Assembly (NCBI RefSeq): GCF_000337135.1
Contig: NZ_AOIN01000063.1
Span: forward strand, 1 to 38,868
Source: Natrialba chahannaoensis JCM 10990
Lineage (GTDB): Archaea > Halobacteriota > Halobacteria > Halobacteriales > Natrialbaceae
DNA: 38,868 nt
Direction: 5' to 3'
The notes beneath the pieces are model-generated. The model did no database searches and was not told the origin of the DNA. It saw only the letters and a list, made by a program, of their open reading frames with translations. This document shows, piece by piece, positions 6,801 to 35,340 of the stretch. Numbering within the stretch: position 1 is the stretch's first letter; every line of letters begins with the position of its first letter. Both the position numbers and the translations under genes were made by a program.

Positions 6801-6955
6801 ACCGAACCGAATCGTCCCGGATTGTTTGGATCGAACTCGAGTACCACGGTCGCTGATCCTTCTTGCGACTGCAAGGTCACGTTCTGGGACGGCTGCGGTG
6901 TTCAGGGTGATCCATAAACACTGCACTCGTGCCAGTGACGATACAGAGCACTTAG

Positions 6956-7041
6956 CTATAGTAACAACTGAAACTGTTTACACACCAATCGCATAGCCTT
7001 CGTGCGATTGGGTGTGCACTGACTTTCAGTGGCTACTATAG
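6956..7041. repeat. Palindromic repeat element, copy A (86 bp)
   Basis: The element begins CTATAGTAACAACTG and ends CAGTGGCTACTATAG. The two halves are imperfect inverted repeats of about 38 bp around a short centre containing GCCTTCG, so a single strand can fold into one long hairpin. A related copy in the opposite orientation lies at 35216-35340. There is no coding capacity. A clear target-site duplication was not found. It behaves like a MITE or a REP-type element, but the parent transposon is not in the window. Confidence 0.85.
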
Positions 7042-7049
7042 GAACGGTC

Positions 7050-7316
7050 TCAGTCATCGGAACCGTCATCTCGCAGCGCAATCCAGTGCGTGTAGCCACC
7101 CGACTCGTGTTTCTTCGCCGCGACGACGTCGAACGTCCATTCACCGACGACGAGTACGTCACCCACGCAGACGAGTTTCGTTTGCTCGTGTACGATGTCG
7201 TCACCATAGCCGAATGCACCGCCACCAGCGTCTGCTGCTCGCTGCCAAAAGTCATCACTGACGACCGTTTCGCTCCTGCACCGGTCGTGTAGTTCGCTCA
7301 CTGTGAATCGAGCCAT
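7050..7316 (-). CDS. Small conserved-looking hypothetical protein
   Basis: 88 residues from MARFTVSELHDRC to a TGA that lies only 8 bp from the palindromic element. The protein contains GAFGYGDDIVHEQTKLVCVGDVLVVGEWTFDVVAAKKHESGGYTHWIALRDDG, which suggests a small beta-rich fold. It has two cysteines (13 and 50) and no membrane segment. I do not recognise the family. Codon use and acidity match neighbouring genes, which supports it being real. It lies downstream of the HTTM gene on the same strand, with a 73-bp spacer that holds a heptamer array. Confidence 0.65.
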   Translation of the reverse strand: MARFTVSELHDRCRSETVVSDDFWQRAADAGGGAFGYGDDIVHEQTKLVCVGDVLVVGEWTFDVVAAKKHESGGYTHWIALRDDGSDD

Positions 7317-7358
7317 ACGCCGGAACTACCAGTTGAACGGCAGCCCCTATGAAAGTGG

Positions 7359-7383
7359 CCGACAACCGACAACCGACATCCGA
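7359..7383. repeat. Heptamer tandem repeat (CCGACAA)
   Basis: CCGACAA occurs twice, then CCGACAT, then a partial CCGAA, at a strict 7-bp period. It ends 6 bp from the stop codon of the HTTM gene (minus strand), so it is at that gene's 3' end. Confidence 0.8.
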
Positions 7384-7389
7384 ACGAGG

Positions 7390-9237
7390 TCAGGACAAAA
7401 TCGTAACGTCCGGCTCGCCATCGTCGTCCTGAATGAACTCGCCCGAGCAGTCGTATTCGATGATCTCAATCTCTGAGATGTCGGGTTCGTCCTCGTACGG
7501 CCCCGAGCGATCGGACATGCCGTAGACCGTCAGCGAGTCAAGGTCTGGACTCGAGTCGTCGCTATTCCAGCGCCCACAGAGGTGGTTCGCGAAGTACGAG
7601 TGGTGGTTCTCGTTGCCCGCAAAGCGCATGTTCGAGAGGTACTTGCGCTCTCTGGAGGTGTCGTAGGTTTCGTCGACGTTCGGTGGTCTGTCCCAGTCGA
7701 CCTCACCACCATGGAGTGCGTCGACTTCGGAGCCATCGGCAAGTTCACCGGGGACGACAAACCACTGAGCTGTCGAGGTCGGATTCGGTGCGAACATCCG
7801 CCAGCTCTGATCTGCCTGCAGCGTATCGAGCACCTGATCGCCTGGGTCGGGGACTTCGGTGTAATCGACGGCTTCGGCGTTCGAGAGGATGACGAGGACG
7901 AGCAGCAGCCACGGAATGACCGTTACGGCGACTAATCGGCCGTAGCCGATGGCGGTGGCGAGCAGGTCGGTGTCAGGTTGTGGCTTCGGATCACTACTGG
8001 CTGTCTCATCATCGTGTGCAGCGCCAGTCTCGTCGTGATTTTCAGACTCGCTCTCGCTCTTGTTCTTGTTTTCGCCCTCGTTTTCACTCTCATCTCCATC
8101 AGCATCACCATCATCCTCACCAGTACCGGCTCCATCGGTCCGTACCGGCTCCGCCCCGCCAGTCCCCGGAACCCGAAACGGCACAACTGGCAACGTCGTC
8201 TGGCACCACTCGAGTACACCCCGAAGTGGTGAGGCGAGACCGATCCGCTGGGCCAGCCGCTCGGCCCAGTCCCAGATAATTGGCGGGTAGAACAGGAGCA
8301 GACCGGCGACGACGATCAGCGGGAAGAGGTCGATCCGTAGGGTAACCAGCATGCCGAGGTGCATCCCGACGAACCCAGTGGCGAGCAGTGCTCGCGGGAT
8401 CCCCGTCAGGAGGAGCAAGAGCGGTGAGATGACGATCATGACCATCCACGCGTACGTAAAGAGTTCAAGCAGTGCCGTGGCGTCCGCGAGGGTGTTCCCG
8501 AGCAAGATAGTCAGGTGGTCGGCCTGGAAGATGTGGACGACCGCATCGCCACCCATCCACGGGTCGCTTCTGGTTTTGTGGATGGCGTTGGTGACGTACA
8601 TCAGGAGTACCTGGACAAGAATTGCAATCGTTCCAATCGTCGCAAGCGTCGTCTCACCGCGCCGCGGGGTGTCGAAGCGACGCGCGTCGACGGACCAGCG
8701 CGAACCAAGCGGGAGGAAGACGCTCCAGAGAAGCAACAGGCGAAGCAGGATGTCGCCGCCGTTGAGCACCATCGGGTTGCGGATGTGCAAGGAGACCAGC
8801 AAGAGCCACGAGACGATGGTCACGAAGCGGGTGCGATAGCCGAGGATCAGCGCGAACGCGAACAGACCCGCAATCAGGAACAAGAGACCTTGGACCCACG
8901 CAGATCCCGAAAGCGCGTGCAGCGAGTAGACCGACGAGTAATCCGAAAACAACGCCGCGAGCGGGAGCACACCCGCGTCAGTATAGAACAAGTCGAGTTG
9001 CCGTGCTCGCATCGCGAGGTCGACGAGGAGCAAGAGCCCAAGCGTGATTCGAAACGCTGCAAGCGCACGCCGGTCGATCGCAAATCGACGCTGGAGCGCG
9101 CTGCCGATCCACTCGAGTCCGCGGTCGAGTCGATCTCGTCCGGTCGTGGCAGCGGACGGTGATGAAGACGACGCGTCTGACCGTTGATTGTGGGAGGGCG
9201 AAGGCTGTAAGGTGGACTGGGGCTGGCGCTGAGACAT
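7390..9237 (-). CDS. HTTM-domain integral membrane protein (vitamin K gamma-carboxylase-like)
   Basis: 615 residues. After a polar S/Q-rich N-tail, FAIDRRALAAFRITLGLLLLVDLAMRARQLDLFYTDAGVLP at about 50-90 is the classic opening of the HTTM family, which is distantly related to vitamin K-dependent gamma-glutamyl carboxylase. Several membrane helices follow, with LHIRNPMVLNGGD and NAIHKTRSDPWMGGDAV between them. A charged E/S/N-rich segment (about 365-420) precedes one more helix. The protein ends in a soluble domain with SWRMFAPNPTSTAQWFVVPG, a motif common in this family. The function in archaea is unknown. It is divergent to a DCC-family thiol oxidoreductase gene, a pairing that recurs in bacteria and archaea, so the two probably work together in the membrane (inference). 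Confidence 0.85.
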   Translation of the reverse strand: MSQRQPQSTLQPSPSHNQRSDASSSSPSAATTGRDRLDRGLEWIGSALQRRFAIDRRALAAFRITLGLLLLVDLAMRARQLDLFYTDAGVLPLAALFSDYSSVYSLHALSGSAWVQGLLFLIAGLFAFALILGYRTRFVTIVSWLLLVSLHIRNPMVLNGGDILLRLLLLWSVFLPLGSRWSVDARRFDTPRRGETTLATIGTIAILVQVLLMYVTNAIHKTRSDPWMGGDAVVHIFQADHLTILLGNTLADATALLELFTYAWMVMIVISPLLLLLTGIPRALLATGFVGMHLGMLVTLRIDLFPLIVVAGLLLFYPPIIWDWAERLAQRIGLASPLRGVLEWCQTTLPVVPFRVPGTGGAEPVRTDGAGTGEDDGDADGDESENEGENKNKSESESENHDETGAAHDDETASSDPKPQPDTDLLATAIGYGRLVAVTVIPWLLLVLVILSNAEAVDYTEVPDPGDQVLDTLQADQSWRMFAPNPTSTAQWFVVPGELADGSEVDALHGGEVDWDRPPNVDETYDTSRERKYLSNMRFAGNENHHSYFANHLCGRWNSDDSSPDLDSLTVYGMSDRSGPYEDEPDISEIEIIEYDCSGEFIQDDDGEPDVTILS

Positions 9238-35215: not shown

Positions 35216-35340
35216 CTATAGTAGCCACTGCAAGTCACTGCGCACCTGATCGCCCGACGGCAGCGCGGTTCGGAGCGAGTGAACTGAGCGAGAATCGCGA
35301 ACGTGCGATCAGTGTGTAACTAGTTGCAGTTGTTACTATA
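35216..35340. repeat. Palindromic repeat element, copy B (125 bp)
   Basis: It begins CTATAGTAGCCACTG and ends CAGTTGTTACTATA, so it matches the reverse complement of copy A (6956-7041). The arms of about 37 bp pair imperfectly. The centre is about 50 bp instead of about 10, with its own GTTCG and CGAAC arms. Relative to copy A, at least three base changes in one arm are matched by complementary changes in the other. Confidence 0.85.

Follow-up and report, generated by a model that had tools for sequence, protein, structure and literature searches.

Introduction

MITEs are a known class of elements. The systems nearest in kind to the one analysed here are RUP, the Correia elements and, in haloarchaea, the MITEs and small mobile repeats (SMRs) of Haloquadratum. 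RUP of Streptococcus pneumoniae measures 107 bp and is associated with IS630-Spn1 (PMC2229807). Like the haloarchaeal family described below, it is a non-coding stem-loop repeat of about 100 bp, present in about 100 copies and targeted to TA, its ends resemble those of a resident IS630, and it inserts into other mobile elements. However, the host domains are unrelated, and a preference for CTAG, two sizes of the centre and inversions of the centre characterize the haloarchaeal MITE, this last contrast being drawn from the MITE side alone. The Correia/NEMIS elements of Neisseria occur as 107 and 155 bp forms, and a role of RNase III has been proposed for them (PMC2229807). In their described features, they resemble the haloarchaeal MITE: two sizes arise from an internal insert (about 50 bp, vs. 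about 40 bp in the haloarchaeal MITE), TA is found at the ends and the whole forms a long stem-loop.

IS630 and ISY100 (Tc1/mariner) duplicate TA (PMC2170065), and IS630 of Shigella has been reported to prefer a TA within CTAG (Tenzen and Ohtsubo, 1991, as cited in PMC2170065). TA duplication, CTAG (for IS630) and a transposase with HTH and DDE domains are also found in the haloarchaeal elements. In contrast, the MITE has no transposase gene and the haloarchaeal IS is made up of two ORFs whose overlap lies at an A7G run.

In Haloquadratum walsbyi, MITEs, PATEs and SMRs are short high-copy repeats with inverted ends, often located within other mobile elements. SMR-A is about 110 bp long, SMRs are reported to have neither a target duplication nor a transposon relative, and PATEs make no TA duplication (PMC3119063). 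For the present MITE family, a target duplication and a transposon with related ends are both found, which sets it apart from SMRs as described.

Finally, if the polymerase switches template between the arms of a hairpin, paired changes and inversion of the loop are expected (PMC8794818), as is homogenisation of the arms with inversion of the spacer (PMC8604942). These predictions are all observed in the haloarchaeal MITEs. In these papers, the process is reported from genes for rRNA and microRNA and from coding inverted repeats of yeast, and not from archaeal MITEs.

Here, we analyse two palindromic copies, A and B, in a window of 38,868 nucleotides (the whole stretch of DNA studied) from Natrialba chahannaoensis JCM 10990 (contig NZ_AOIN01000063.1). 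Our reading, to which we assign a probability of about 0.85, is that they belong to an IS630-type MITE inserted at TA and mobilised in trans, and that the paired changes in its arms most likely come from arm copying and not from a selected RNA.

Two Copies from Two Subfamilies

A repeat search of the window in inverted orientation matches 6987-7041 with 35216-35270 and 6957-6993 with 35304-35340 (Table 1). The first-pass annotation had described A and B as inverted relatives with arms of about 37 bp, at least three base pairs altered in both arms and a longer, different centre in B, and all of this holds. When both copies are read in the same direction, pair 15 changes from A.T in A to C.G in B, pair 30 from C.G to T.A and pair 31 from A.T to G.C. 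Five further arm differences, which are unpaired, had not been listed: L20 and L21 belong to the left arm and the other three to the right arm, where two disrupt a pair. The outer inverted repeats span 17 bp, with fixed mismatches at positions 8 and 10. Within the genus Natrialba, the non-pairs at positions 8, 10, 18, 20, and 24 and a bulged G are shared by almost every copy of either subfamily. As a DNA hairpin, copy A folds 5.6-6.4 sd better than shuffled sequences. A and B each represent a different subfamily of the same non-autonomous transposon.

Table 1. Features of the two MITE copies in the window.
Feature	Position	Strand	Description
MITE copy A	6957..7040	+	84 bp including both flanking TA duplications; core 6959-7038; class from 288 aligned copies
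Copy A ends			left TATAGTAACAACTG; right CAGTGGCTACTATA
Copy A flanks	6956..7041	.	C6956 and G7041; presumed target CTAG with TA duplicated, from the C/G flanks of 186/288 copies and the empty sites (TA/CTAG) of other copies
Copy A left arm (L1-37)	6957..6993	+	pairs with right arm 7003-7040; bulged G; conserved mismatches 8, 10, 18, 20-22, 24
MITE copy B	35217..35340	-	124-bp variant; copy A-type arms, about 40 bp of extra centre containing a separate GC-rich inverted repeat; C at either flank
Copy B long variable centre	35254..35303	-	CGTTCGCGATTCTCGCTCAGTTCACTCGCTCCGAACCGCG...; from the alignment of 84- and 124-bp copies

Insertion at TA

The joined flanks of 10 copies were searched across the genus for empty sites, using alignments made from the loci themselves. 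Clean empty sites were found for three copies, L034 in five relatives (CC-TA-C), L004 (AACTAGG) and L007 (GGGCTAG), and each has one TA in the empty site vs. two in the filled site. At a further locus, L006 (G000 C100:126844-127031), an A-type MITE is nested in the arm of a B-type copy at an internal CTAG, giving CAAC-TA-[element]-TA-GTTAC with the TA duplicated, and elsewhere two copies have one common TA (C41:29249-29415). C and G flanks, which make up CTAG with the target, are present in 186 of the 288 insertions, vs. CTAG in 18 of the 908 TA sites of the window (2%). The MITE inserts at TA, duplicates it and strongly prefers CTAG; the first two traits are those of IS630/Tc1-mariner elements and the third that of IS630. 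For copy A itself, a clean empty site was not obtained, the intergenic region of the relatives being too diverged to align.

Several loci deserve a separate mention. The intergenic region around copy A (window 6801-7390) spans about 590 bp, vs. about 160-180 bp in two relatives, has no sequence alignable with them and contains extra DNA beyond the MITE itself. The L006 case shows that the MITE itself contains a target site for its own insertion, CTAG being rare in this genome. In L034 (G000 C14:75671-75754), the MITE lies a few codons past a start codon (ATGAGTGATACC-TA-C) and the gene is uninterrupted in the five relatives. Three copies (L086, L130, L196) end in GATAG...CTATC: the outermost pair is changed on both sides even though it is the expected target duplication, and a simple TA duplication does not account for these ends.

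A Probable IS630-Family Partner

A related IS with the ends of the MITE had been proposed as a check, and searches with DDE_3 (PF13358) led to such an element, with related ends. It is a 1,059-bp member of the IS630 family, present in the same genome (L140, with assembly gaps), in other genomes of the genus and in many of the family. Its ends are TATAGTAGACGTTAGAAAT / TATAGTAACCGTTAGAACT, to be compared with TATAGTAGCCACTGCAAGT (right) and TATAGTAACAACTGCAACT (left) for the MITE. About 13-14 of the 19 outer positions are identical, the differences at positions 11, 12, 14, and 15 being found in both ends. In the MITE and the IS630 alike, position 8 is G at one end and A at the opposite one, and position 18 on the A end is C, so the two have a common end polarity. 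The IS630 element also has the same CTAG preference as the MITE, and two of its copies are located inside MITEs (L144, L160).

In the partner L140, HTH domains (HTH_33) are encoded by one ORF and DDE_3 by the next. The two ORFs overlap at an A7G run, with the heptamer AAAAAAAG, in several copies (L140:1426-2577 and related loci); from the sequence, a -1 frameshift on A7G, likely a programmed one, probably joins the HTH and DDE_3 proteins. The resulting transposase would then act in trans on the MITE. Since the ends are only about 13-14/19 identical, the MITE may in fact be mobilised by the transposase of a different, unsampled IS630, and co-occurrence of MITEs and IS630 across genomes is not strict. 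A pattern search of the same genome for an autonomous element with MITE-like ends, together with 17 extra loci, returned MITE copies and fragments only. Of the 1,059-bp type, this genome has a single well-preserved IS630 and one or more broken ones, and a decayed IS630 copy lies near a B-type MITE (L141; G000 C86, around 42664-43029).

Short size (84/124 bp), lack of a transposase, terminal inverted repeats, high copy number (some 80-90 right ends genome-wide), TA duplication with empty sites and ends related to those of an autonomous element with HTH and DDE_3 domains make us nearly certain that the element is a MITE of the IS630/Tc1-mariner type.

Paired Changes and Probable Copying between Arms

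The first-pass annotation had proposed that the hairpin is kept, either by selection or by a copying process in which one arm serves to correct the other, and that, if unpaired changes were as frequent as paired ones in other copies, A and B would agree by chance or by gene conversion alone. Among 220 distinct 84-mers, nearest-neighbour copies at a distance of at most 8 were compared. One-sided changes amount to 399 vs. 19 two-sided ones, 14 of which preserve the pair; these counts include non-independent events, so that distinct events are fewer. Likewise, when the 132 copies of the genus are compared, variation at most stem positions is confined to one side, and positions 8, 10, 18, 20, and 24 are almost always non-pairs. 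As one-sided changes largely outnumber paired ones and mismatches stay mismatched, pairing is not what is kept, and selection on the hairpin is not borne out. Paired changes are nonetheless above chance: when the partner was slid by 1 to 6 columns, only 0-4 pair-keeping changes were counted vs. the 14 observed.

Correction of one arm against the other fares better. In several copies, the 17-bp centre reads as the reverse complement of the usual one, with the asymmetric outer arms unchanged. At least five centres are inverted in this way, two of them with zero other differences: once the centre is turned back, L245 is identical to L300 and L220 to L042, L209 is one change from L183, and L475 and L362 show two and three changes, respectively. 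L011/L012 likely represents a further inversion event. These inversions were scored by neighbour counts, because inverted copies neighbour each other and a strict-margin scan is therefore blind to them. Arms have also been homogenised in tracts. In a subfamily from other genera, named RR, about 13 copies carry the right-end sequence at both ends (a count that leaves out L460, 1 of 14 rows, in which two elements were falsely paired); their outer 17 bp have become symmetric, while the stretch just inside is still of the left type. At L482:1516-1562, two right ends form a 48-bp palindrome, right-type on both sides.

In the mechanism that we propose, the two arms would fold back and one would occasionally be copied from the other during replication by template switching, which would either invert the centre or render both arms alike. 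Selection on the predicted transposase-binding ends would probably maintain the left/right asymmetry. That template switching is the main source of the paired changes is, in our opinion, rather likely. At pairs 30 and 31, wobble and one-sided intermediates exist, so the changes there may have occurred in two steps rather than by one switch.

The paired differences could also be ordinary differences between subfamilies, the ends coevolving as equal sites for one transposase with no copying of arms. Pair 15 belongs to the outer 19 bp and has the same letter at both ends in MITE A (A), in MITE B (C) and in the IS630 (G), and its change could indeed reflect coevolution of the two ends with the transposase instead of copying. 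Yet pairs 30, 31, 33, 36, and 37, which belong to the inner stem absent from the IS630, also vary in pairs, and the centre inversions are left unexplained, and we consider this explanation rather unlikely. A functional RNA or protein-binding structure (small RNA, terminator, or RNase substrate), with selected pairing and compensatory changes, is much less probable still. Strong folding, the excess of paired changes over chance and an identity of 88-96% between genera are in its favor. It is, however, at odds with the predominance of one-sided changes among close copies, with stem positions conserved as non-pairs, with a derivative that has lost the inner stem (L484:1472-1521), and with insertion at TA next to orthologous empty sites, which denotes a mobile element. 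No Rfam match was found within the window, and a functional RNA was rejected on Rfam, fold and pair counts. A single-strand element of the REP/RAYT or IS605-PATE type or an integron-like attC site, suggested by the imperfect palindrome, the conserved asymmetry and the high copy number, is hardly credible given the TA target duplication, which to our knowledge none of these elements makes, the IS630-type CTAG target and ends related to those of a DDE transposon.

Copy Number, Distribution and Annotation

The search of the genome and its relatives with the arm sequence, suggested at the outset, showed a high-copy family that is widespread in the genus and the order. In the N. chahannaoensis genome, near-full copies of the A-like form number 42, and the longer B type occurs at about 35 places. 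A right-end search with at most two mismatches gave 92 sites, part of which are duplicates at assembly gaps, and the family has roughly 80-90 copies in this genome. The MITE is present in all seven genomes of the genus Natrialba, and the 124-bp form in 17 of 125 genomes of the Natrialbaceae. Within the order, it was found in 105 of 392 sampled genomes and 27 of 95 genera. The wider set of copies was collected by a pattern search in which some end letters were fixed and is biased to those letters at positions 8-18, whereas neither the inner stem nor the centre is affected. Hosts include Natrialba, Natrinema, Natronorubrum, Natronococcus, Halostella, and Halovivax. The family is also carried by Haloarcula and Halomicrobium plasmids, and nearly all of the plasmid places listed have no annotation of the MITE. 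Carriage by phages was looked for and none was seen, and a literature search of open-licence papers found no earlier description of the family.

Single-N gaps occur in or between copies at L068, L070, L074, L075, L079-L084, L106, L107, L110, and L024 (C97), with the neighbouring sequence duplicated. The hairpins broke the assembly, so that the gaps mimic tandem or composite elements. Tandem arrays were rejected, the apparent 90-bp repeats and duplicated centres being single-N assembly gaps with flanking sequence repeated. L110 has a very long centre of GCGAACGAAGTGAGTGAGAACCGCG repeats, partly across an assembly gap; another repeat seems to be growing inside its loop.

Concluding Remarks

Covariation alone is no proof of a selected RNA, because a mobile palindrome can yield paired changes by mutation. 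The MITE family is widespread in the order and unannotated at nearly all of the plasmid places listed, and it gives reason to ask whether the unexplained small mobile repeats of Haloquadratum are IS630 MITEs too. It is also a large natural resource for estimating how often, in archaea, hairpins are inverted and arms corrected. We see about an even chance that the family naturally records template switching in archaeal hairpins, a record in which inversions and arm copying could be counted across hundreds of near-identical imperfect palindromes, and in which this process would produce compensatory changes without selection on structure as well as new subfamilies of transposon ends.
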